In this document: positions 4,279 through 34,926 of the stretch, piece by piece
Layout of the letters: every line of letters starts with the position of its first letter
Position numbering within the stretch: the stretch's first letter is position 1
IMG/VR virus record: IMGVR_UViG_3300006793_000116
Span: 1 to 34,926 of that record
Reading direction: 5' to 3' (one strand)
Origin: a virus
DNA length: 34,926 nt
The notes under the pieces: model-generated
Seen by the model: the letters and a program-made list of their open reading frames with translations, nothing else
The model's database searches: none
What the model was told of the DNA's origin: nothing
Program-made: the position numbers and the translations under genes

Positions 4279-5253
4279 ATGATTCTTCTTTGTTTTGGGA
4301 CTAGACCGGAATGGCTAAAAATAAAACCTTTAACTAAAGTGTTAAAGAATTACAAACTTTTGTTTACAGGTCAACACACGGATTTATTACGTGACATCGA
4401 GGTTGATTATAAGATTAATATTAACGAGGGTGATAATCGATTAGACCGAGTTGTAGCCGATTGCACGTTACAGTTTCCTGAGGGAGATTTTGATACAGTG
4501 TTAGTACAAGGAGATACTGCCTCTGCGTTCGCGTGTGGGTTAGCCGCGTTTCACCGTCAGTTACGTTTAGTATATTTAGAAGCGGGGTTACGTACAGGAG
4601 ATTTGGAAAACCCTTACCCTGAAGAAGGTTATCGTCAGATGATATCTCGTATAGCCGATGTAAATTTATGTCCGACTAATTTATCTATTACTAATTTAGT
4701 GCACGAAAGAACAGTAGGACAAAAGTTTGTAGTAGGTAACACAGTGCTTGATAACCTTTTACCTTATAAAGATAAATGCGAGTACGAACCTACTGTTTTG
4801 GTTACGATGCACCGTAGAGAAAATCATGAGAAAATGGACGAATGGTTCGCCGCTATTAACGATGCAGCTAAAGAGCATTCTGCCCTTAAGTTTGTACTTC
4901 CTATTCACCCTAACCCAAACGTACAAAAACACAAAGACCTTTTAACTCACGTAAACGTTATAGAACCTTTGGAATATAATGAACTGCTAAATGTGTTAGT
5001 TAAATCTAAGTTTGTAATAACCGATAGTGGGGGACTTCAAGAGGAAGGGAGCTTTTTTAACAAAAAAGTTATTGTATGTAGGAAGACAACCGAGAGACCT
5101 GAGGGTATTTCTACAGGTCATTCTATAATATGTGCTTCCCCACACCAATTAAAAAAGAGAGTTAAAACGGTTAACGAAGATTATATTATAGAAGAAGAGT
5201 GCCCTTACGGAGATGGTAAGTCGGCACAAAGAATAAGGGAGATATTAGAATGA
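4279..5253 (+). CDS. wecB: UDP-N-acetylglucosamine 2-epimerase (non-hydrolysing)
   Basis: Interconverts UDP-GlcNAc and UDP-ManNAc in the cytoplasm. The 324-residue protein shows the family landmarks in order: FGTRPEWLKIKPL at the N-terminus, LVQGDT, LEAGLRTGD, PEEGYRQMISRIAD, VTMHRRENH, the UDP-binding ITDSGGLQEE and KTTERPEGIS. Typical members are about 370 residues; this one is compact but appears complete. The codons are AT-rich, as in the neighbours. The next gene overlaps by 4 nt (ATGA). UDP-ManNAc could feed one of the transferases or the minimal dehydrogenase at 2866, which would give ManNAc uronate. That link is inference. Confidence 0.93.
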   Translation: MILLCFGTRPEWLKIKPLTKVLKNYKLLFTGQHTDLLRDIEVDYKININEGDNRLDRVVADCTLQFPEGDFDTVLVQGDTASAFACGLAAFHRQLRLVYLEAGLRTGDLENPYPEEGYRQMISRIADVNLCPTNLSITNLVHERTVGQKFVVGNTVLDNLLPYKDKCEYEPTVLVTMHRRENHEKMDEWFAAINDAAKEHSALKFVLPIHPNPNVQKHKDLLTHVNVIEPLEYNELLNVLVKSKFVITDSGGLQEEGSFFNKKVIVCRKTTERPEGISTGHSIICASPHQLKKRVKTVNEDYIIEEECPYGDGKSAQRIREILE

Positions 5254-19184: not shown

Positions 19185-19433
19185 ATGATTAAACGGATTC
19201 ATATCAATCAACACTTTATTCGGTCGAATAAGAAGAAGCAGGAAAACAACCCTGTCGTAACCGTAAAGACATATAAGTCAAACGATTATGGTCATGAGGT
19301 AAACATTCTTGGTTCATCAAAAGTTATTTATTCCCCAGCCAAACCTCTGGCGTGCGGTGCAAAAGTTTGGATTGAAACTCAAGCACCTGTCGAGGTTAAA
19401 AACACTTTAACTGGTAACACAAAGGTGGTATAA
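19185..19433 (+). CDS. Conserved phage hypothetical protein
   Basis: The 82-residue protein starts at ATG 19185, with AAAGGAAG 10-17 nt upstream. An upstream in-frame start would lie in the tRNA. The text IHINQHFIRSNKKK, VVTVKTYKSNDYGHEV and KPLACGAKVWIETQA matches a pattern that recurs in small hypothetical proteins of phages and mobile elements, as far as memory allows. It is predicted to be a small beta-barrel-like fold. Function unknown. It lies between tRNA-Arg and another small gene. Confidence 0.7.
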   Translation: MIKRIHINQHFIRSNKKKQENNPVVTVKTYKSNDYGHEVNILGSSKVIYSPAKPLACGAKVWIETQAPVEVKNTLTGNTKVV

Positions 19434-19439
19434 GTCAAG

Positions 19440-20157: not shown

Positions 20158-20200
20158 AGCCCGCGCTCGAGCGTAAGTAGTGTGGGGGTAAGGACTTACG
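20158..20200 (+). repeat. Stem-loop element R1 (of nine)
   Basis: A GC-rich GCCCGCGCTCGAG block is followed by CGTAAGT (20172-20178), a 15-nt loop and ACTTACG (20194-20200). It sits in the leader of P1 and 49 nt before the -35 of P2. It is the only copy in the left half of the window, and it has the same sense relative to the downstream promoter as most right-arm copies. Confidence 0.8.
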
Positions 20201-23771: not shown

Positions 23772-24936
23772 AATCGAAATAGAAAACTTTAACTGCCTCC
23801 CAGGTTGTACCTCAGATATAATGTTCGTTGTAGAAAACACAGCACTTCGGCGTGAACACGCCTACTACGCCTACAGCAAACGTACCCCCTCTAAGTTTAT
23901 GAGCGACATCTGTAAAAACCTAAACGCAAGTGACTGCCCCAGTTTTGTTAATAACAAAACTAAATCTTTAGTTATTATTGACGATAAGCGACAAGAGATT
24001 GGTTGCATCCAAAACCGTAGTTTAATTACAACAGGTTTTCTTTATGAGGAATTGTTGCAAGTAAACCGTGGTACTCAAAATATCGAAAAAGACCGTAACA
24101 AGTTTTTTATCAATGATATTACAGGTAACGCCGATGGGTTTAATTCGGATTACTATTTACGAGTGTTGGACTTGTGTTGGTATTTGCAAGAACAAAAAGC
24201 CAACGCAATAGAAATCTCCGCGAGGCACAACAGAGTCTCCAGTAAGCGTGTCTTGCCTGAGCCACACAACTTTTTTTCTAAGCGTTACAAAAAGGCGCAA
24301 GCGGAAACGAAAGATACTCTCGTTCACAAGATTATTGAGCATATTACTGAGTATGGGGATAGGCTTTTTGAGGTACTAAACAAAGCAACAAATAACAACA
24401 TCGACTTTAGTATAAGTTTAGACTCTTTAGGGTCTGGCTCCGAAAAAGGAACCGACCTGGGTGACTTTACGGATTCGTTTTTTGAGGAACTTAACCCTTT
24501 TAGGTATTCTTACCAATATAAATACGTAAAAGAATATTGGGACTACCGTAAAAAACTACTTAAAAATGTAAGTTCAGATTCGGACAATACTCCTATTACG
24601 TCTTGGAAAGAGTTTGTAGTTGATGCGATAGAAAGTGCTACAGCCGATATTATTTTACCTGATGGGGTTTCTATAGCAGCCAGTAGTGGAATGTGCGAAC
24701 TTACGGCTTTTGGACTACAAGAGTTTCTTAGGAGAGCGGACATCTGGATTAAAAACGGTACGGTCGTTGGAGGAGGAAGGACATCCTATCCCTCAGTCAA
24801 TGCCTCACAGTGGAAAACTGTCGCAGAATCAAAGTTTAAGCGATGCCGTGATTGGAAGTTGGGGAATATCAATTTCTATAAAGCAGAAGCATTGAAGTTG
24901 CGTCGTAATTTGTTGGAGGGAACTTTCGATGAGTAA
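23764..24936 (+). CDS. Hypothetical protein of the MoxR-VWA operon
   Basis: The 390-residue protein is mixed alpha/beta with no transmembrane helix and no motif I recognise. An N-terminal third with CLPGCTSDIMFVVENTAL is followed by an acidic, Ser/Gly-rich middle (SLDSLGSGSEKGTDLGDFTD, about 219-238) and a helical C-terminus. It overlaps the VWA gene and the putative sigma gene by 8 nt each, so it is an integral member of this operon. It could be the target or adaptor of the ATPase machine. There is no basis for a more specific call. Confidence 0.6.
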   Translation: MRKIEIENFNCLPGCTSDIMFVVENTALRREHAYYAYSKRTPSKFMSDICKNLNASDCPSFVNNKTKSLVIIDDKRQEIGCIQNRSLITTGFLYEELLQVNRGTQNIEKDRNKFFINDITGNADGFNSDYYLRVLDLCWYLQEQKANAIEISARHNRVSSKRVLPEPHNFFSKRYKKAQAETKDTLVHKIIEHITEYGDRLFEVLNKATNNNIDFSISLDSLGSGSEKGTDLGDFTDSFFEELNPFRYSYQYKYVKEYWDYRKKLLKNVSSDSDNTPITSWKEFVVDAIESATADIILPDGVSIAASSGMCELTAFGLQEFLRRADIWIKNGTVVGGGRTSYPSVNASQWKTVAESKFKRCRDWKLGNINFYKAEALKLRRNLLEGTFDE

Positions 24937-25480
24937 TAATCTCTCTTACGAACAATGGGAGTGGTTGGAAGAAAAATACGGTAAGTTGTTACATCATATT
25001 GCTTACCGTATCGGACTCGACCCAATTACGCATGACCATGACGATAGCTATCAAGAACTGTGCATTGCAATGATGGATACTGTAAGAATGTTTGATAAAA
25101 CTGCTACTGTTCCGTTTGATGAATACAAAGATACTGCACACTTTGATAAGTATCTCAAAACTGTTTTATGGAACAGAAAGAACTGTCTCGGTCAAAGGAT
25201 TATCCGTCGCGCACCTTTGCGTAAGCAAGTAACTATTGACGAGAAACTTCTTAAAGGTAAAGTCTTTAATCCTGTTGAGAGTTTCGAGCCTTTTGGAAAC
25301 GAACCTCTTGATAAGGATATGTTAAGTATCCTGCGAGAAGTAGAGCAAGATGCTAAAATCATTAAGCCTAGCGGGGAGTTTAATATCAGCCGTTTATGTC
25401 ACAACCTAAACAAAAGTAAATCTGAAATTAAACATACCCTTGAACGACTACGCTACACCCTAAAATCTTATGATGAATAA
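24929..25480 (+). CDS. Putative phage sigma factor (sigma70 region 2-like)
   Basis: The 183-residue protein has QELCIAMMDTVRMFD followed, after an insert, by FDKYLKTVLWNRKNCL. This resembles the core-binding and -10-binding helices of sigma region 2, as in T4 gp55-like late sigma factors. The C-terminal ISRLCHNLNKSKSEIKHTLE could be a helix-turn-helix similar to region 4. A TTGGAGGG ribosome site precedes the ATG. A sigma that reads a -10 box without a -35 would explain the CTATAATA promoters. The assignment rests on pattern similarity; an unrelated DNA-binding protein is possible. Confidence 0.55.
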   Translation: MSNNLSYEQWEWLEEKYGKLLHHIAYRIGLDPITHDHDDSYQELCIAMMDTVRMFDKTATVPFDEYKDTAHFDKYLKTVLWNRKNCLGQRIIRRAPLRKQVTIDEKLLKGKVFNPVESFEPFGNEPLDKDMLSILREVEQDAKIIKPSGEFNISRLCHNLNKSKSEIKHTLERLRYTLKSYDE

Positions 25481-28127: not shown

Positions 28128-28435
28128 ATTGTGTTTTCTTCGTTGTTTCTTGTAAGAATCCGAATAAAGTTCGGAGCTTTCGTTCTTTTTTGGTTTTTGT
28201 AATAAGGGAATAAAAAAAAACAGAACATAATTCGACCTAGTTTCACCCTATTACCCCTGCTCTAGTATAAGTCAAGACCTAATTAGACCAGAGTAATAGA
28301 GAGATAAAACAAAAACACATCCAGTTTACCGAACATTGTACGGAGAAACCCCCTCTTACCCCATCATAAAGATGGTATAAGTCAAGGTTTTATGCGATTT
28401 ACAAAAACCTATTTGTTTTATTCTTATTTTTTTGT

Positions 28436-28498: not shown

Positions 28499-28625
28499 CA
28501 CTTTCCCCACAGGGGGATACAAAAGAAATACAAAAAAGAGGTTTACAAAAAACAACTACTTATAAAAGAACAAAATGGTATTCCCTTTACATAAATGCGG
28601 GGGGTACAACCACTTAGGAATGCGT

Positions 28626-28654
28626 ATTATAGCAAATCCCCCGCTCCCCGTCAA
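28626..28654 (-). promoter_or_regulatory. Sigma70 promoter into the noncoding region
   Basis: TTGACG (28649-28654), 17-bp spacer, TATAAT (28626-28631). No start codon stands within 20 nt downstream except an 8-codon GTG frame. It lies 86 nt downstream (minus sense) of stem-loop element R2. Confidence 0.75.
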
Positions 28655-28740
28655 GCATAAACCCTTACAAAACAAGAACTTAGAACCTTTAGGTGTAAAT
28701 TAGAAATCAATCAACTTGTTTTTTGTTTTTTATTATTGTT

Positions 28741-28795
28741 CGTAAGTGCTTGGTGGCACACTAGTTAGGTCGGCCCGGGGCCCGCCGCCGGTTTT
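28741..28795 (-). repeat. Stem-loop element R2 (of nine)
   Basis: Minus-strand sense: a GC-rich block containing GCGGGCCCCGGGCC, then CCTAACT, a 15-nt loop and ACTTACG (28741-28747). The arms carry two mismatches, so this is the most degenerate copy. It follows the terminator at 28842. Confidence 0.65.
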
Positions 28796-28841
28796 GTCAA
28801 GTAAAAAAGAAAAACTTTTGGCGTGCGTACCAGGTGAACAT

Positions 28842-28873
28842 AAAAAAGGAGCGAGGCTAGTAAGCCCCGCCCC
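28842..28873 (-). terminator. Intrinsic terminator of the 28905 gene
   Basis: In the minus sense a 10-bp stem GGGGCGGGGC / GCCTCGCTCC (with two G-T pairs) is followed by six T. A second small hairpin (AAACCC...GGGTT, 28874-28892) stands between it and the stop codon. Confidence 0.8.
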
Positions 28874-28904
28874 ATAACCCACGAGGGTTTATATGAAAAC
28901 AATC

Positions 28905-29237
28905 CTACATTCCCTTAGCAACTTCATTAGCCACGAGGTTACGCTCTTCCTTAAGCGCAGCGAGGTCAAACTTATACTGAGACAGCCACGCCTCCGCTTG
29001 CTCCCCGCGCTGAACCCAGCCAGCAACGCGAGCTTGAAAGTCTGAAACCTTCTTGTCAGCTTCCTTGCCCCAACGCTTCCACTTCAGAGCGGTTTTGTTG
29101 AGTTCGTCGATTTGCTCGTCAAGTGCCATGACCTTCGGGTCTGCGTTAACTTGCTTCTTGTTTTGCTTGGCTTGCAAAGCAACCATTTGTGCTTGCAGCT
29201 CGTCCATGCGTTCTTGAATCGGGCGATGTTGTGCCAT
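28905..29237 (-). CDS. Coiled-coil hypothetical protein
   Basis: The 110-residue protein is read from the ATG at 29237, which has a perfect AAGGAGG ribosome site 5-6 nt upstream. It is Gln/Lys/Glu-rich and almost entirely helical (ERMDELQAQMVALQAKQNKK; MALDEQIDELNKTALKWKR), a coiled coil of perhaps 80 residues. Its own sigma70 promoter lies at 29293-29321, and a terminator follows. Unlike its right-arm neighbours it has a normal leader of about 50 nt. The role is unknown; a scaffold or DNA-mimic function would be speculation. Confidence 0.75.
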   Translation of the reverse strand: MAQHRPIQERMDELQAQMVALQAKQNKKQVNADPKVMALDEQIDELNKTALKWKRWGKEADKKVSDFQARVAGWVQRGEQAEAWLSQYKFDLAALKEERNLVANEVAKGM

Positions 29238-29292
29238 TTGGGTAATCCTCCTTGGATTGATGTTAGGGTGTAGTCTCGATTTGAGATGACTC

Positions 29293-29321
29293 ATTATACC
29301 ATAGGGGGCAGCATAAGTCAA
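29293..29321 (-). promoter_or_regulatory. Sigma70 promoter of the 29237 gene
   Basis: TTGACT (29316-29321), 17-bp spacer, TATAAT (29293-29298). The -35 and first spacer bases form TTGACTTATGC, a copy of the repeated ATAAGTCAA motif. The leader carries AAGGAGG. Confidence 0.9.
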
Positions 29322-29333
29322 GGGTTTTCTTGG

Positions 29334-29410
29334 AAAAATATCAGAGAGAGAGGGATGTTCTGAACATCATGATTTTCTTAGGGATGCAGAACAGTTCTCC
29401 CTCTGACAGA
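29334..29410 (-). ncRNA. Putative small RNA with own promoter
   Basis: The promoter at 29417-29445 would start RNA near 29410. The sequence folds back over its whole length: TCAGAG...CTCTGA (29341-29346 with 29401-29406) and GTTCTG/CAGAAC (29357-29362 with 29387-29392), then TATTTTT follows. This gives an RNA of about 70 nt with a terminator-like end. No translatable frame starts downstream of the transcription start. Confidence 0.5.
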
Positions 29411-29416
29411 TGACAT

Positions 29417-29445
29417 AGTATACCATAGGGGGTGGTATAAGTCAA
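29417..29445 (-). promoter_or_regulatory. Sigma70 promoter of the putative small RNA
   Basis: TTGACT (29440-29445), 17-bp spacer, TATACT (29417-29422). It shares most of the spacer and the GGGTTTTCTTGG upstream flank with the promoter at 29293, so the two are duplicates. Confidence 0.85.
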
Positions 29446-29482
29446 GGGTTTTCTTGGTAATTTTTTTAAGGAGCTTTCGAGC

Positions 29483-29558
29483 TGGTAGGGAGAGTGGGAC
29501 TCGAACCCACACTGGAAGGATTTTAAGTCCTTTGCCTCTGCCATTGGGCTACCTCCCC
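29483..29558 (-). tRNA. tRNA with UAA anticodon (Leu), short variable loop
   Basis: A 76-nt cloverleaf with encoded CCA: acceptor GGGGAGG/TCTCCCT, D-arm GCC...GGC with GG in the loop, anticodon arm AAGGA-CTTAAAA-TCCTT with anticodon TAA, a 5-nt variable loop and T-arm GTGGG-TTCGAGT-CCCAC. UAA reads the Leu codon UUA. Bacterial Leu tRNAs normally have a long variable arm; this one does not. Confidence 0.88.
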
Positions 29559-29572
29559 GTTTGCTCCCACAC

Positions 29573-29602
29573 ATTATAGCTCTGCGGGGGGGTATTAGTC
29601 AA
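29573..29602 (-). promoter_or_regulatory. Sigma70 promoter of the tRNA-Leu gene
   Basis: TTGACT (29597-29602), 18-bp spacer, TATAAT (29573-29578). The tRNA begins 14 nt after the -10, so the primary transcript has a leader of only about 8 nt. Confidence 0.88.
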
Positions 29603-29619
29603 GAACTTTCTCGGAAATC

Positions 29620-29667
29620 GTATAAGCCCTTACCCCCACACTACTTACGCCGACGCGGGGCCGGGAT
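29620..29667 (-). repeat. Stem-loop element R3 (of nine)
   Basis: Minus sense: GC-rich CCCGGCCCCGCGTCGG, then CGTAAGT, a 15-nt loop identical to R1 and GCTTATA. The -35 of the tRNA-Leu promoter lies 18 nt further on. The stem keeps pairing through G-T pairs. Confidence 0.75.
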
Positions 29668-29789
29668 TTGGAGAATGGTTTTTTTGTGAGAAAACCATTG
29701 AAAAAACTCCCTCCCTCATTTACTTGAATCGCCGTGAGGCGAGCGATTATATCAAAGCGGTAAAAACATAGAATATTATATTTGCACGA

Positions 29790-29816
29790 AATAGTATTGT
29801 CCCACACAATGCTATT
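29790..29816 (-). terminator. Weak stem-loop at end of 30006 gene
   Basis: AATAGCATTGT / ACAATACTATT, an 11-bp arm pair with one mismatch and a GTGGG loop, overlaps the stop codon of the gene. There is no strong T-run, so termination is doubtful. Confidence 0.4.
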
Positions 29817-30006
29817 CTGATGACGGCTTCCCTTTCAGACGTTCCAACTCGCGCTCCATGCTGCGCACCGTGCCATCCGCTTCCAACAAGGAAAGGAACG
29901 AGTCGATAATGCTCTCCTGCTGCTGTAGGGTAAACTCAGGGTGATTGTCGATAATCTCGGCGCAGAGGTCAGCGAGGGATTGGAAGGGGGTACTTGACTG
30001 ATTCAT
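29812..30006 (-). CDS. Small hypothetical protein, leaderless mRNA
   Basis: A 64-residue, mostly helical protein (FQSLADLCAEIIDNHPEFTL; QESIIDSFLSLLEADG) with a charged C-terminus. It starts at ATG 30006, exactly 7 nt after a perfect TATAAT, and has no ribosome site, so the mRNA should begin at or next to the ATG. Longer in-frame starts would lie within the promoter. A degenerate second copy of its promoter and first codons lies 85 nt upstream. Not recognised. Confidence 0.7.
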   Translation of the reverse strand: MNQSSTPFQSLADLCAEIIDNHPEFTLQQQESIIDSFLSLLEADGTVRSMERELERLKGKPSSE

Positions 30007-30013
30007 TGTAGGT

Positions 30014-30042
30014 ATTATAACCGAGCGGAAGCGGTCTGTCAA
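30014..30042 (-). promoter_or_regulatory. Sigma70 promoter, leaderless start at 30006
   Basis: TTGACA (30037-30042), 17-bp spacer GACCGCTTCCGCTCGGT, TATAAT (30014-30019), then 7 nt to ATG. The same spacer recurs at 30099 and 31307. Confidence 0.92.
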
Positions 30043-30070
30043 GGGGAAACTAGGATTTTTTTATTTTTTC

Positions 30071-30127
30071 CTAAGTCCTTGACTGATTCATTGTAAGTAT
30101 TATAACCGAGCGCAAGCGGTCTTTCAA
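30071..30127 (-). repeat. Duplicated promoter with 6-codon frame
   Basis: TTGAAA (30122-30127), 17-bp spacer, TATAAT (30099-30104), 7 nt, then ATG AAT CAG TCA AGG ACT TAG (30091-30071). It is a near copy of the promoter and first codons of the gene at 30006. It is either a decayed duplication or a leader peptide. Confidence 0.7.
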
Positions 30128-30165
30128 GCATAAAACAGGAAATCCAGGCAAGTATTTTAATTGTT

Positions 30166-30240
30166 TGTAAGTCCTTACCTCCACACTACTTAGGACGAAA
30201 TCCGGGCCCGCCAAATCGGTGATTTAGAGCCGTTTGGTGA
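30166..30240 (-). repeat. Stem-loop element R4 (of nine)
   Basis: Minus sense: GGCGGGCCCGG block, CCTAAGT, a 15-nt loop and ACTTACA (30166-30172). A flank of about 45 bp between it and the next promoter is nearly identical to that of R7 at 32091. It lies between the end of the GP88 gene and the duplicated promoter. Confidence 0.8.
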
Positions 30241-30254
30241 GGGTTATTCGTTAG

Positions 30255-30920
30255 TTAGACAAACCACTTTTCCTTGACCTTATGCCCGTGAAGCGCGTAG
30301 CGGATAACTTTAATATCTTTAGACCAGCAAGCGCGACACGTTGCGCACTTTCCGCTGCGCGTATAAGCGCGGCAAAGACTTTCCCCCTTGGTCGGAACGA
30401 AGTCCTCTGCACTTTCAATGATGGTAGAGGTCGTATCCCCTTCCACAGTTTCCCCGTCAATGCTATCACTGGAGAAGCGCACCACTACGTTAGGCAACGC
30501 ATTCATACGCGCAAAGACAGGCGCGAAGATTGGGTCTTTGTGCATACGGGTAGGCAGCCAATGCTGGCAGTTCGGGGTCATTTTCATCACGGTATATATT
30601 CTGTGCGCAAGCGGTAGGCTGTAAACGTCGCCAGAATCGAACCAGCGAAAATACTTAGCTTTGCCAATCTTGGCGACCATAGTTGCCGTCCAACCAGGTA
30701 CTTTCCAATCTTCCATGTTATGCGCACGAGCAGCGATTGTAGCGGGAAAGCGGTATGCGCCCGTCAAGGCATAGCAGTAATGGCAAGCGTCTACTGGCTT
30801 GCCTTCCGAATCCTTAGCACTAGGACAAGAATCCCATGCAGGAAGCGACCAGGACTTACAAGGCATTTTGCCAGCAGAGGAGATTTTAGGGGTAGCGATA
30901 GGGGTGGAGATTGACTTCAT
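30255..30920 (-). CDS. GP88-family protein
   Basis: The 221-residue protein resembles the phage 'gene product 88' family: SWSLPAWDSCPSAK, CHYCYALTGAYRFPATIAAR, KYFRWFDSGDVYSL, HWLPTRMHKDP, VVVRFSSDSIDG and, at the end, CATCRACWSKDIKVIRYALHGH. Many Cys residues (CxxC pairs near 46-49 and 195-201) suggest metal or Fe-S binding. The biochemical role of the family is not established to my knowledge. The mRNA should be leaderless: TATAAT at 30928-30933 lies 7 nt before ATG 30920. It is the largest gene of the right arm. Confidence 0.85.
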   Translation of the reverse strand: MKSISTPIATPKISSAGKMPCKSWSLPAWDSCPSAKDSEGKPVDACHYCYALTGAYRFPATIAARAHNMEDWKVPGWTATMVAKIGKAKYFRWFDSGDVYSLPLAHRIYTVMKMTPNCQHWLPTRMHKDPIFAPVFARMNALPNVVVRFSSDSIDGETVEGDTTSTIIESAEDFVPTKGESLCRAYTRSGKCATCRACWSKDIKVIRYALHGHKVKEKWFV

Positions 30921-30927
30921 TCCCTAT

Positions 30928-30956
30928 ATTATAGCGTTGCGCACCTACGCGGTCAA
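30928..30956 (-). promoter_or_regulatory. Sigma70 promoter, leaderless start at 30920
   Basis: TTGACC (30951-30956), 17-bp spacer, TATAAT (30928-30933), 7 nt (ATAGGGA) to the ATG. Confidence 0.9.
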
Positions 30957-31044
30957 GTCTTCGTCATTTTGTAAGTATCTTACTTATAACGGGTTACGGT
31001 TATCTCAAAAGATTTTTCATTTTATTATATTTCCTTTATTTTAC

Positions 31045-31106
31045 TTGACAAAATCCGCTGGCGGGGCCAAGTCCGTCCCTAAGTAGTGTCGTGACCAAGG
31101 TTTACG
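31045..31106 (+). repeat. Stem-loop element R5 (of nine), inverted
   Basis: Plus sense: TTGACA, GC-rich GCTGGCGGGGCC, then CCTAAGT (31078-31084), a 15-nt loop and GTTTACG (31100-31106). It is inverted relative to the other right-arm copies, and its second arm overlaps the stop codon of the minus-strand gene ending at 31102. Confidence 0.65.
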
Positions 31107-31299
31107 TCGGCTGCCAAGGTTTCACCGACGGGCAACAATACAGGCTTCGCTCCATTTCTGCTCGAAGACCTTCGAGGCACTCGGAACAGTCCTCAGCAGC
31201 TTCGACGGTGCGGTAGCGTTCCCCACACTCGCAAACGTGTGGGAAGTCTTCGATGTTTAGGTTCTCTTGTGGCATGGTCTTAGGGTTGGGGTCTTTCAC
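31102..31299 (-). CDS. Small Cys-rich protein, leaderless GTG start
   Basis: A 65-residue protein read from the GTG at 31299, which is 7 nt after TATAAT (31307-31312). An in-frame TTG at 31380 has no ribosome site and lies upstream of that promoter; an ATG at 31275 also lacks one. It has Cys pairs HVCECGERY and DCSECLEG and a CC near the end, which suggests a small zinc-binding fold. Predicted acidic. Its stop lies within R5. Not recognised. Confidence 0.65.
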   Translation of the reverse strand: MKDPNPKTMPQENLNIEDFPHVCECGERYRTVEAAEDCSECLEGLRAEMERSLYCCPSVKPWQPT

Positions 31300-31306
31300 A
31301 GTAAGT

Positions 31307-31335
31307 ATTATAACCGAGCGGAAGCGGTCTTTCAA
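31307..31335 (-). promoter_or_regulatory. Sigma70 promoter, leaderless GTG at 31299
   Basis: TTGAAA (31330-31335), 17-bp spacer identical to that at 30014, TATAAT (31307-31312), 7 nt to GTG. Confidence 0.88.
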
Positions 31336-31431
31336 GTATAAAGCAGGAAAAAGATAGTCTTTCTTTTTTTCAGAGTGCAACGACTCTCAGAGGTGAAAAA
31401 CTGCCGGAAAAATCTCCCCTGTTGTGCGTAT

Positions 31432-31460
31432 ATTATACCGTCTTTCTAGCATATTGTCAA
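31432..31460 (-). promoter_or_regulatory. Upstream sigma70 promoter (tandem)
   Basis: TTGACA (31455-31460), 17-bp spacer, TATAAT (31432-31437). It gives a leader of about 130 nt to the 31299 gene, with a small AGAGT/ACTCT hairpin, or a separate short RNA. No start codon follows within its first 40 nt. Confidence 0.8.
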
Positions 31461-31476
31461 GCATAATCTCATAATT

Positions 31477-31550
31477 TTTAACTCCTTACAGACACTAGAC
31501 TTACGCTCGAGCCGGGCCCGCCCAATCCAGGGTTTAGACCCTGTTTGTGG
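31477..31550 (-). repeat. Stem-loop element R6 (of nine)
   Basis: Minus sense: CAGGGTCTAAACCCTG hairpin, GGGCGGGCCCGGCTCGAG block, CGTAAGT, a 15-nt loop and AGTTAAA (31477-31483), then 16 nt to the -35 at 31460. The distal arm pairs poorly in this copy. Confidence 0.75.
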
Positions 31551-31561
31551 GAGGTAAAGGG

Positions 31562-31780
31562 TCAAACGCCATCAACAGACAGACCAAGGTACTTAGAAAG
31601 TAAGGTAGCATTAGCTTCCTCGTCTGCATCGAATACTTCATTCATACAATTAAGAACCAAAAGGATTTCTTCGTCACGTGTTAGTTGACCGTCGTACATG
31701 TTCTCTCTAATAGACTTGAAGAACATATTGATTATGATTTCCTTAGCCAAAGGAATATCCTGTATTTCAGATTGAGCCAT
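31562..31780 (-). CDS. Small acidic hypothetical protein
   Basis: The 72-residue protein is acidic and helical (SEIQDIPLAKEIIINMFFKS; TRDEEILLVLNCMNEVFDAD). It starts in a TAATG overlap with the upstream gene and has a GGGGGTG site 8 nt before, so it is translated from the same leaderless-start mRNA as the gene at 32016. Its stop is followed directly by R6. Not recognised. Confidence 0.65.
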   Translation of the reverse strand: MAQSEIQDIPLAKEIIINMFFKSIRENMYDGQLTRDEEILLVLNCMNEVFDADEEANATLLSKYLGLSVDGV

Positions 31781-32016
31781 TATAGATTCACCCCCAACTG
31801 GCGCAGAGTGTAATAAATAACGTCCTCGGCTTGCGTTGCCGAGATATCGTACTTGGCAGCAACTTCGTACGACAAGTGAGCGATTACTGCGTAGTTACAG
31901 TGTGGTAGGAACTCAGCGTAGTATTGGAAATCATCTAAGACGCTAGGAAGGCAGACATTCAGACCTGCTGCAAGGGATTCTTTGACTGACGGGGTAGGGG
32001 GGACTATCGAATTCAT
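31780..32016 (-). CDS. Small hypothetical protein, leaderless mRNA
   Basis: A 78-residue protein starting at ATG 32016, 7 nt after TAAAAT. It is helical with several aromatic residues (DDFQYYAEFLPHCNYAVIAH) and ends with QAEDVIYYTLRQLGVNL. In-frame starts further upstream fall in or beyond the promoter. It forms a two-gene unit with the gene at 31780. Not recognised. Confidence 0.68.
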   Translation of the reverse strand: MNSIVPPTPSVKESLAAGLNVCLPSVLDDFQYYAEFLPHCNYAVIAHLSYEVAAKYDISATQAEDVIYYTLRQLGVNL

Positions 32017-32023
32017 TGTATAC

Positions 32024-32052
32024 ATTTTAGTTGCGCGGACGCATTTGCGCAA
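32024..32052 (-). promoter_or_regulatory. Sigma70 promoter, leaderless start at 32016
   Basis: TTGCGC (32047-32052), 17-bp spacer, TAAAAT (32024-32029), 7 nt to ATG. Weaker hexamers than its neighbours. Confidence 0.7.
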
Positions 32053-32090
32053 GCGTAAAACAGGAAATCCAGGCAAGTATTTTAATTGTT

Positions 32091-32160
32091 TGTAAGTGTT
32101 TGGCAGGTCACTACTTACGCTCGAGCCGGGCCCGCCCAATCCAGGGTTTAGACCCCTTTG
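32091..32160 (-). repeat. Stem-loop element R7 (of nine)
   Basis: Minus sense: GGGCGGGCCCGGCTCGAG, CGTAAGT (32113-32119), a 15-nt loop and ACTTACA (32091-32097). The stem is perfect for 6 bp. The same 45-bp flank as in R4 leads to the -35 at 32052. Confidence 0.82.
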
Positions 32161-32221
32161 GCGAGGGTTTAGGTGGGGTTTTGAACAGACCCCAAACTGT
32201 ATGAAATCAAATATCTAACCT

Positions 32222-32428
32222 TTAACCTTTAGCGCATTTGTATTTGCCGCGCAGGTTCTGATTGTGATACTTGCCAACACTCTCAGCGTCAGCCATAGCA
32301 TCAGCAACAGAGAAGGGGACATCGGCATAGGTATACACCTCGCCTTTGCTAGTTTCAATGCTTAGTTCGTTTTTGTTAGGAACATAAGCGAATTTTTCAA
32401 TCCAACTTGAAATGAATTTTCCAGCCAT
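32222..32428 (-). CDS. KTSC-domain protein
   Basis: The 68-residue protein matches the KTSC domain: IEKFAYVPNKNELSIETSKG, EVYTYADVPFSVADAM, and the AESVGKYHNQNLRGKY end with the Ser-Gly-x-Tyr and R-G-x-Y positions. This domain is common in small phage and bacterial proteins of unknown function. A GGGAGG ribosome site 9 nt before the ATG lies at the end of the upstream gene, which ends one base earlier, so both share an mRNA. Confidence 0.8.
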   Translation of the reverse strand: MAGKFISSWIEKFAYVPNKNELSIETSKGEVYTYADVPFSVADAMADAESVGKYHNQNLRGKYKCAKG

Positions 32429-32429
32429 C

Positions 32430-32606
32430 TTAAGTATACCTCCCTACTTGGGTGATGTTGCGTCGCACGAATGAGCGAGCGCGGTTATAGTCGTTGAAAG
32501 TCATTTTAGACTCTGAGCGACCTTGGGTGATTGTAGCAGTCCAAATAGACTTGCCACGAGTTTTGTTGATGCTAACTTTGTTAGCTTTGATTGGTTTTTT
32601 CTTAAC
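32430..32606 (-). CDS. Small basic protein, non-canonical start
   Basis: A 58-residue, basic protein (KKKPIKANKVSINKTRGK; NDYNRARSFVRRNITQ). A perfect AGGAGG (32612-32617) stands 5 nt before GTT at 32606-32604, but no ATG, GTG or TTG lies at a usable distance. An upstream in-frame ATG at 32684 lies within the promoter and could not be on the mRNA. The start could be GTT, or a base may be misread in the assembly. It is cotranscribed with the KTSC gene from the promoter at 32644. Confidence 0.55.
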   Translation of the reverse strand, partial: VKKKPIKANKVSINKTRGKSIWTATITQGRSESKMTFNDYNRARSFVRRNITQVGRYT

Positions 32607-32628
32607 GAGACCCTCCTGGGGGTTCGGT

Positions 32629-32793
32629 TTATTCGAGATACATAGTATAGCAAAGCCATGCCATGGTGTCAACCCTTTTTTCACATTTTTTGTGGACGGT
32701 TGAGAACTGAGCCATTAAAGCCCCTGAGGGTATTACCGGCTCATGTTTGAGCCATTGTGGTGGGGCACGAGGGGGGGTCTTGCTGGTTTCCAT
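32629..32793 (-). CDS. Small hypothetical protein, leaderless mRNA
   Basis: A 54-residue open frame starting at ATG 32793, 7 nt after a perfect TATAAT with TTGACA upstream. This is the same layout as the other leaderless genes. The protein is Pro-rich at first (SKTPPRAPPQWLKHEPVIP) and has a Cys/Trp/Met-rich end. Its 3' part overlaps the promoter at 32644 of the next unit. No other explanation for the strong promoter is seen. Short length and lack of homology leave moderate confidence. Confidence 0.5.
   Translation of the reverse strand: METSKTPPRAPPQWLKHEPVIPSGALMAQFSTVHKKCEKRVDTMAWLCYTMYLE
32644..32672 (-). promoter_or_regulatory. Sigma70 promoter of the 32606-KTSC unit
   Basis: TTGACA (32667-32672), 17-bp spacer, TATACT (32644-32649). 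It produces a leader of about 30 nt with AGGAGG. Confidence 0.88.
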
Positions 32794-32800
32794 TCCAGGC

Positions 32801-32830
32801 ATTATACACGCGCCCCCTGCTGGCTGTCAA
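32801..32830 (-). promoter_or_regulatory. Sigma70 promoter, leaderless start at 32793
   Basis: TTGACA (32825-32830), 18-bp spacer, TATAAT (32801-32806), 7 nt (GCCTGGA) to ATG. Confidence 0.88.
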
Positions 32831-32848
32831 GAACTTTCTTGAAAATCG

Positions 32849-32913
32849 TATAAACCCTTGTAAACACGCGACTTACGCTGGCGCGAGGCCCGCGCCCGCT
32901 GACCTTGTCAAGG
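32849..32913 (-). repeat. Stem-loop element R8 (of nine)
   Basis: Minus sense: CCTTGACAAGG palindrome, GC-rich GCGGGCGCGGGCCTCGCGCC, CGTAAGT (32871-32877), a 15-nt loop and GTTTATA (32849-32855), then 18 nt to the -35 at 32830. Pairing is maintained by G-T pairs. Confidence 0.78.
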
Positions 32914-32932
32914 ATAAAATGGCGACGAATAT

Positions 32933-33166
32933 CTACCAAGGATGGTAGTCGTCGTCTTCCATGCGTTCCATCATATTGAACACTCGGTCTTGGCAAGACT
33001 GGCACATACCCGAAATACTATATTCCTTTTTAGAAATATCATCGCGGAAGTCGCAGTCGCGGATTTGAGTGCTACCACAGGGGACACATTCCCCGTTGAT
33101 GATAGAGTTCGCCGCTTGGGGGAACAGTTGGAAAACAGGTTTAGAGAGGTCGGGAGGTAGGGGCAT
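32933..33166 (-). CDS. Zinc-ribbon-like small protein
   Basis: A 77-residue protein from ATG 33166 with CVPCGS and MCQSCQDRVFN, two CxxC knuckles about 24 residues apart, the pattern of a small zinc ribbon. An IRDCDFRDDISKKEYSI segment lies between them. AAGGA lies 7 nt before the ATG, which comes one base after the previous stop. It is likely the second gene of the 33407 unit. It could bind nucleic acid or act as a small transcription modulator; unproven. Confidence 0.68.
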   Translation of the reverse strand: MPLPPDLSKPVFQLFPQAANSIINGECVPCGSTQIRDCDFRDDISKKEYSISGMCQSCQDRVFNMMERMEDDDYHPW

Positions 33167-33167
33167 T

Positions 33168-33407
33168 TTAGTATCCTTGGGTTGCGAGGTAAGCGTCGTG
33201 GGAACCGTAACGGCTGTCCGTTTCTTTTTCGTTACCCACCATACGGCGAGATTCACGATACATTTCCAAAAGGCGCATAGTTTGTTCGCACTGCCACCCG
33301 CCTGATGGGATTGTTTTGTGTGATTGGGCGAATGCCCGACCAATGGTGAGAGAGAGATTGTGTAAGTCTTCGATAGACTGAGGGACGGTAGCAGAGTTGT
33401 ATGCCAT
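33168..33407 (-). CDS. Small hypothetical protein, leaderless mRNA
   Basis: A 79-residue protein starting at ATG 33407, 6 nt after TAAAAT. A helix (QSIEDLHNLSLTIGRAFAQS) is followed by CEQTMRLLEMYRESRRMV and a C-terminal AYLATQGY. The last part resembles the end of the protein at 33676 (VLEHYRSVRRML ... FNATQGF), so the two may be diverged paralogues. No ribosome site. Function unknown. Confidence 0.68.
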   Translation of the reverse strand: MAYNSATVPQSIEDLHNLSLTIGRAFAQSHKTIPSGGWQCEQTMRLLEMYRESRRMVGNEKETDSRYGSHDAYLATQGY

Positions 33408-33413
33408 GAGAGT

Positions 33414-33442
33414 ATTTTAGCAGAGCGGGGGAGGATTGTCAA
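33414..33442 (-). promoter_or_regulatory. Sigma70 promoter, leaderless start at 33407
   Basis: TTGACA (33437-33442), 17-bp spacer, TAAAAT (33414-33419), 6 nt to ATG. Confidence 0.88.
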
Positions 33443-33460
33443 GCATTTTCTAGAAAATCC

Positions 33461-33676
33461 CTAGAATCCTTGCGTTGCGTTAAACGCCTTACGCTTGGAA
33501 CCTCTGTGGTTGCCTAAGTGGTTCCCACATCGTTGGATTGGCAACATCCTACGGACTGAGCGGTAGTGTTCTAGGACTTTCGCAGCCTTAGCGTTACGCT
33601 TGTGGTTTGGAGAGGTGTAGAGAGTCTCGAAACGCTTTGCAACGAGAACGGAGTAGAGGTTGATTAGGTAATTCAC
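33461..33676 (-). CDS. Small basic protein, leaderless GTG start
   Basis: A 71-residue, strongly basic protein read from GTG 33676, 7 nt after TACAAT. Features are NYLINLYSVLVAKRFE, a KRNAKAAKVLEHYRSVRRML helix and a GNHRGSKRKAFNATQGF end. The basic charge suggests nucleic acid binding. A frame extends upstream to 33742, but that part lies in the promoter. The C-terminal similarity to the 33407 gene hints at common origin. Not recognised. Confidence 0.65.
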   Translation of the reverse strand: MNYLINLYSVLVAKRFETLYTSPNHKRNAKAAKVLEHYRSVRRMLPIQRCGNHLGNHRGSKRKAFNATQGF

Positions 33677-33683
33677 AGTGAGT

Positions 33684-33712
33684 ATTGTAACAGAGCGGAA
33701 GCCGTTTGTCAA
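33684..33712 (-). promoter_or_regulatory. Sigma70 promoter, leaderless GTG at 33676
   Basis: TTGACA (33707-33712), 17-bp spacer, TACAAT (33684-33689), 7 nt to GTG. Confidence 0.85.
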
Positions 33713-33728
33713 GTAAAAAAGGGAAAAT

Positions 33729-33923
33729 TTAAGAGTTTCCAATCAAAATACCTTGCACCCAAGTATCGAAACGGTCAACGTCAAAGTTAGGGTTTGATTC
33801 TTTACAAACAGCGATGACCTCGTCCATGATGATGATGGTTTGGTCTTTGGTGGCGTTCAAAGCCACGATGATGTCGGCAGTCATTTGAGCCAACGCCTGG
33901 AAGTGTGAGCGAGTCATTTTCAT
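33729..33923 (-). CDS. Small hypothetical protein, leaderless mRNA
   Basis: A 64-residue protein starting at ATG 33923 (MKMTRSH), 6 nt after TATACT. It is helical (FQALAQMTADIIVALNATKD; TIIIMDEVIAVCKES) and acidic. Its layout is similar to the gene at 30006 (two amphipathic helices, DxxI repeats), although clear homology is not visible. No ribosome site. Function unknown. Confidence 0.68.
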   Translation of the reverse strand: MKMTRSHFQALAQMTADIIVALNATKDQTIIIMDEVIAVCKESNPNFDVDRFDTWVQGILIGNS

Positions 33924-33929
33924 ACGCGT

Positions 33930-33959
33930 AGTATAGCACAGCGGAGAGGGTGCTGTCAA
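33930..33959 (-). promoter_or_regulatory. Sigma70 promoter, leaderless start at 33923
   Basis: TTGACA (33954-33959), 18-bp spacer, TATACT (33930-33935), 6 nt to ATG. Confidence 0.88.
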
Positions 33960-33977
33960 GAACTCTCTTGAAAATCG

Positions 33978-34045
33978 TATAAACCCTTGTAAACACGTGA
34001 CTTACGTTCGACCCGGGGCCCGCTCAATCCAGGGTTTGGAGGCTA
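33978..34045 (-). repeat. Stem-loop element R9 (of nine)
   Basis: Minus sense: CCAAACCCTGGATTGAGCGG, GCCCCGGGTCGAA, CGTAAGT (34000-34006), a 15-nt loop almost identical to R8 and GTTTATA (33978-33984), then 18 nt to the -35 at 33959. Confidence 0.8.
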
Positions 34046-34831: not shown

Positions 34832-34847
34832 TACATCTCTATAAGAA

Positions 34848-34926
34848 CAAAAAAAAATAAAATCCAAAAAAAATAAAATCCAAAAAAAATAAAAACCAAA
34901 AAAAATAAAATCAAAAAAAAATAAAA
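34848..34926. repeat. A-rich tandem repeat at window end
   Basis: About five copies of a 15-17-nt unit of the type CCAAAAAAAATAAAAT run to the last base. Unit length varies by one or two A. It may mark a genome or contig end, or an assembly artefact. No gene is seen from 34748 to 34926. Confidence 0.8.

Follow-up and report, generated by a model that had tools for sequence, protein, structure and literature searches.

Repeated palindromes of virus record IMGVR_UViG_3300006793_000116 as a probable reduced form of a promoter-phased operator of large phages

The sites of class I activators and the twin enhancer sites (CRP, NtrC) consist of dyads that precede the -35 box, spaced in successive helical phases. 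Repeated dyads were also described in phages. In cluster K mycobacteriophages, many small non-structural genes are preceded by imperfect inverted repeats of 17 bp, the extended start-associated sequences (ESAS); each ESAS has a single inverted repeat, with a spacer of 4-13 bp, beside a 13-bp start-associated sequence (SAS) located at the start codon (Pope et al. 2011, PMC3203893; PMC12699233). In T4-like phages, promoter-early stem-loops (PeSL) are reported to be intergenic modules in which a palindrome is combined with an early sigma70 promoter, inserted among the small genes of a variable region (Arbiol 2010; Comeau 2014, both as cited in later papers). Here, the IMG/VR virus record IMGVR_UViG_3300006793_000116 (34,926 bp, hereafter the window; all positions are given on its full length) was analyzed for a 29-bp palindromic box, of which nine intergenic copies had been listed in an earlier note made from the sequence alone. 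These copies probably represent, in reduced form, a repeated double-stranded DNA (dsDNA) operator, which several lineages of uncultivated large phages carry among their early-type genes and which would serve a putative dimeric regulator of sigma70 promoters.

The full element was displayed by other phages, in fetched IMG/VR loci found by two pattern scans (at least 120 viral stretches each), from which all unit counts below are derived. It spanned about 82 bp and encompassed two imperfect 29-bp palindromes around a 24-bp spacer, the core of which was G/C-only (92% G+C, in loci of 41% G+C). Most of the 692 distinct two-box units (630) had boxes exactly 53 bp apart. The box consensus was CGTAAGTCCTTA-n5-TAAGGACTTACG, frequently with TTGA/TCAA flanks, and the half-site read (C/T)(G/C)TAA-N4-TT(A/G). 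Units were distributed within a variable gene cluster, one per small gene and about one per kilobase. All units of two 200-230 kb contigs read almost whole (15 and 17, respectively) fell within a single cluster of small genes spanning about 20 kb, and two further contigs looked alike in their clustering, among the matches listed.

Units were preferentially associated with promoters on a single side. On exactly one side of 445 units, and on both sides of 5, a near-consensus sigma70 promoter directed away from the unit was located no further than 130 bp from it; inward-pointing promoters were found at 35 flanks, and the shuffled-flank control gave 18 of 1384. The distances from box end to -35 peaked at 17-19, 27-30, 38-40 and 49-51 bp. 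After dereplication, the resultant at a period of 10.5 bp was 0.42 over 255 distances and 0.48 over the 224 distances of up to 70 bp, the latter compared to at most 0.26 in 2000 jittered sets. The clade of the window provided an independent replicate, with distances of 7, 16, 17, 18, 26, 27, 37, 38 and 39 bp falling in one phase (resultant 0.88, p = 0.0005), and its phase (6.6 bp) was close to that of the large phages (7.7 bp). This test was confined to boxes whose promoter lay no more than about 40 bp away, leaving out the window boxes at 28656 (1 bp) and 28741 (86 bp) and two boxes of locus L006 (69 and 83 bp).

Repeated dyads in one genome region resemble iterons, and a replication, partition or packaging site could have come to lie in the small-gene cluster by chance. 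A density of one per kilobase, with each site tied to one promoter, on one side and at phased distances, makes this explanation very unlikely. The many intergenic palindromic copies in several phage lineages could also point to a mobile repeat spread by transposition, similar to repetitive extragenic palindromes and bacterial interspersed mosaic elements (REP/BIME) or to miniature inverted-repeat transposable elements (MITE). Bacterial and archaeal genomes totalling 257 Gb contained no match to the strict pair pattern, and a looser pattern retrieved four loci there, against the at least 120 viral stretches: three short contigs of metagenome-assembled genomes (MAG) with several 53-bp units each, taken as phage fragments, and one locus without units. 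This near absence from cellular genomes, the confinement to a single gene cluster in the two contigs read almost whole, the one-sided and phased promoter association, and copies that are divergent instead of near-identical make a mobile repeat highly improbable. Protein searches in INPHARED (UvsX, GP88, terminase, DUF932-like) retrieved only distant relatives, and the regions read from five of these records displayed no unit. Eight contigs fitting an L006-style pattern were discarded as unrelated matches.

The arrangement of one unit per small gene, from stop codon to next promoter in a variable cluster, would also suit the boundary of a recombination cassette, where intergenic modules would permit phages to exchange small genes, an idea put forward for PeSLs; moreover, two window copies had 43 identical bases in common. 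The median identity between units of one locus was only 65%, which fits homologous exchange poorly, and neither the exact 53-bp spacing nor the promoter phase is needed for recombination. We consider this explanation unlikely, and recombination at the units may be a side effect. Units avoid perfect palindromes and long stretches of mutual identity, which may itself limit hairpin cleavage and recombination.

In the window, the region from about 28.9 to 34.7 kb encompassed many small minus-strand genes with near-consensus sigma70 promoters, and promoter-like sites between 28,500 and 34,926 were in excess (26 found against 8.4 expected). Copies were scored with a 29-position weight matrix built from pattern-matched sites in IMG/VR loci; no window sequence was included, and the window copies misfit that pattern. 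All nine copies, of 29 nt each, stood where the earlier note had placed them, far beyond chance: they scored 5.0 to 24.4 bits, the 99.9th percentile of all window positions being -0.9, and none of them ranked below the 16th place among about 34,900 window positions. A tenth copy, absent from the earlier list, was found at 28656-28684 (adjoining a promoter with -35 at 28654), and 28590-28618 (13.3 bits) is a possible eleventh. The G+C block described on one side of copies was real. The boxes were as follows (d, distance in bp from box to -35):

20172-20200, plus strand: box, copy 1 (24.4 bits); promoter TTGACA-17-TATACT upstream, pointing into the box (layout exception)
28656-28684, minus strand: tenth box (21.4 bits); 1 bp from the -35 of the promoter at 28654-28626
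28741-28790, minus strand: box 28741-28769 with GC block on the right (13.1 bits); next promoter 86 bp away
29621-29668, minus strand: box 29621-29649 with GC block (14.6 bits); promoter -35 at 29602 (d=18), before the tRNA-Leu at 29483-29558
30166-30211, minus strand: box 30166-30194 with GC block (21.4 bits); promoter -35 at 30127 (d=38)
31058-31106, plus strand: GC block with box 31078-31106 (5.0 bits); inverted relative to the flanking genes (layout exception)
31477-31525, minus strand: box 31477-31505 with GC block (11.5 bits); promoter -35 at 31460 (d=16)
32091-32138, minus strand: box 32091-32119 with GC block (17.0 bits); weak promoter TTGCGC/TAAAAT (d=38), read by eye
32849-32899, minus strand: box 32849-32877 with GC block (6.9 bits); promoter -35 at 32830 (d=18)
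33978-34025, minus strand: box 33978-34006 with GC block (6.9 bits); promoter -35 at 33959 (d=18)

The position between a stop codon and the next promoter, also claimed earlier, was recovered for the seven copies at 28741, 29621, 30166, 31477, 32091, 32849 and 33978, each of which follows a minus-strand gene and precedes a promoter on that strand (with the weak TTGCGC -35, by eye, at 32091), and not for those at 20172 and 31078. Distances from box to -35 were 18, 18, 18, 16, 38 and 38 bp, the last one to the weak -35 read by eye. Since the promoter beside box 29621 drives a tRNA-Leu gene (promoter and gene together at 29483-29602), the element is not limited to protein genes. Regarding the boxes themselves, the description as 7-nt arms in all copies was too strong, several of them (30166, 31477 and 28741) pairing at 4-5 of 7 positions. 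Similarly, the so-called invariant 15-nt loop was constant in length, not in sequence, and corresponded to the inner part of the 29-bp palindrome of the wider family.

Box pairs at 50-52 bp were displayed by three related phages (L009, G011 and G002). The box kept in the window copies was the promoter-proximal one, with its GC block, and the 29-bp palindrome was decayed on one side in the window clade. The window copies are read as a reduced, single-box version of the element that would have lost the distal palindrome.

Palindromes can form hairpins, and in the sense direction the majority of window copies follow a stop codon and precede the next promoter, both in favor of a transcribed stem-loop acting as terminator, processing site or protein-binding RNA. 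The earlier note hinted at such an RNA structure because the arms seemed to change while pairing was kept. Among 33 boxes of the window clade, of phages related to it and of two large phages, none of the seven stem pairs showed change on both sides, and paired cells (81.2%) were below all 500 shuffles. Mutual information over 539 distinct boxes placed arm pairing near or under the expectation for independent half-sites, apart from slight excesses (the largest at position 2, 0.51 against 0.45 expected), while variable positions paired less than expected (0.42 against 0.52 at position 6, 0.36 against 0.46 at position 8). On the sense strand, G.U pairs were not preferred over A.C mismatches (222 against 317 in proximal boxes, 181 against 325 in distal boxes, 11 against 11 in the nine copies), and minimum-energy RNA folds lacked the proposed 7-bp/15-nt hairpin, except for one antisense fold of the first copy. 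The RNA reading fails because of this lack of covariation and of G.U preference, and of folds without the proposed hairpin. The absence of compensatory changes, pairing below shuffles and the lack of G.U preference are as expected of a two-fold dsDNA dyad. The search in other phages that the earlier note had suggested did yield matches, not the compensatory changes it anticipated; the dsDNA dyad was conserved instead.

No T-run followed the distal box in any of 228 cases, and terminator-like sites in the small-gene region of the window were at chance level (8 found against 7.3 expected), which argues against an intrinsic terminator. Rfam matched only three tRNAs in the window and no family for the repeat copies, in agreement with the earlier statement that no known terminator or riboswitch was recognizable. 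An RNA hairpin was discarded on the folds, the pair counts and the mutual information of the 539 boxes, and an RNA element of any of the kinds above appears quite unlikely. The copies show the pattern of two-fold symmetric dsDNA sites with independently varying half-sites, and are not RNA hairpins.

Binding by a phage regulator, one of the possibilities raised at first, held up, with strong positional evidence for a regulatory site at the DNA level. Half-sites were symmetric without arm covariation and stood in fixed geometry to the promoter, as in an operator, and the element looks like a protein docking site because of its twin palindromes, their fixed spacing and the whole helix turns separating them from the promoter. 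A dimeric protein, encoded by the phage or recruited from the host, would probably sit on each palindrome. The two palindromes, five helix turns apart, would lie on one helix face upstream of a host sigma70 promoter, where the bound protein could contact RNA polymerase or the neighboring dimer in a helical-phase dependent manner, and this contact would set the timing or the strength of expression of each small gene. Class I-like activation is preferred over repression as somewhat more likely, and looping repression is a possible mode of action. We infer the protein itself, its dimeric state, the sign of its effect and the early timing, the last from gene size, region and sigma70 promoters. It is plausible that, in several lineages of uncultivated large phages, about 15-20 early-type transcription units form the regulon of one regulator, through twin-palindrome/GC-core sites five helix turns apart, phased to the promoter, mutually different and imperfectly palindromic.

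Several observations weigh against such an operator. Near-consensus promoters should need no activator, and 242 of the 692 units had no near-consensus promoter within 130 bp. Much of the periodicity came from the peak at 28-29 bp: once distances of 26-30 bp were removed, p was about 6e-4 at 10.5 bp and the best-fitting period was 7.3 bp; kinship of neighboring units could also inflate the periodicity. In the window, a partner box sought 50-56 bp from the copies was not found above chance, leaving the second box missing, and two copies were off the usual layout, 20172 being downstream of its promoter and 31078 inverted. The proteins common to the window clade and the large-phage clade included no obvious shared regulator, and no binding protein was found. 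A binder of the HU/IHF type, suggested by the YAA-N4-TTR-like half-site, was rejected, as a sequence search found PF00216 absent in 20 carriers.

A close resemblance is with ESAS, likewise a repeated dyad upstream of many small genes, with many copies per genome, a clade-specific consensus and a putative function. The element differs by having two dyads, separated by 53 bp and enclosing a GC block, upstream of the -35, and by its consensus and layout; the 13-bp SAS GGGATAGGAGCCC was absent from the window even when 2 mismatches were allowed. As in PeSLs, a strong sigma70-like promoter belongs to the module (in 445 of 692 units, and in six window copies at d=16-38, one of them weak and read by eye). 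However, the PeSL stem-loop is reported to be a terminator, whereas no covariation, no T-runs and only chance-level terminator-like sites were found here. ESAS and PeSL are the nearest known kinds, membership failing on the terminator for PeSL and on the core sequence for SAS.

The element shares with CRP and NtrC sites the phased dyads ahead of the -35 and the pair of dyads on the same helix face; it differs by its GC-only spacer, its presence in phages and its frequency of about one per transcription unit. It matches neither the known consensus of CRP nor that of NtrC. No description of a twin-palindrome/GC-core element was found in the searchable literature, and one may exist elsewhere.

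Other motifs were distributed around the units of the large phages. A further dyad, CCTTACGATATTGTAAGG, preceded many -35 boxes, between unit and promoter, and CCGATA was recurrent in the -35/-10 spacer (both in L206, L189, L133 and other large-phage loci). A sigma54-like -24/-12 motif, TGGCAY-N5-TTGCW, occurred 172 times in 1.56 Mb of carrier loci, compared to 2 in shuffled sequence; 135 of these were within 200 bp of a unit, often as face-to-face pairs (L206, L149, L146, L115 and other carriers), and none was found in the window. Locus L185 harbored about seven nearly perfect palindromes TGTAAGTCCTTGCTACATAAGGACTTACA in 420 bp (4301-4721) without GC block, perhaps a different use of a similar palindrome.

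Plus-strand genes of the window included those of UvsX, glycosyltransferases and nucleotide-sugar enzymes. A 183-aa protein (24929-25480, plus strand) matched sigma-70 region 2 weakly (E 4e-5, just below the Pfam cut-off); it may function as a late sigma factor, as T4 gp55 does. The minus strand carried a repeated CTTGACTTATACCA-like motif (6 matches against 0.5 expected, among them 19426-19439, 28263-28276, 28373-28386 and 29433-29446), also common in L006, there as CTTGACTTATAGCA. The right end of the window (34841-34926) consisted of a tandem array of an A-rich 16-bp unit, CCAAAAAAAATAAAAT, which may reflect a limit of the assembly or be a natural repeat.

With these results, nine unexplained repeats become a DNA motif that is defined and can be searched for; it is present in many large phages that have not been studied, and it marks their apparent host-takeover genes and promoters. 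The exact 53-bp spacing and the phasing of about 10.5 bp yield testable predictions for reporter assays. If a phage protein binds the motif, early infection would be under the control of this master regulator, to which the motif would be a direct route; if a host protein does, the motif would point to the host and to the host factor exploited by the phage.

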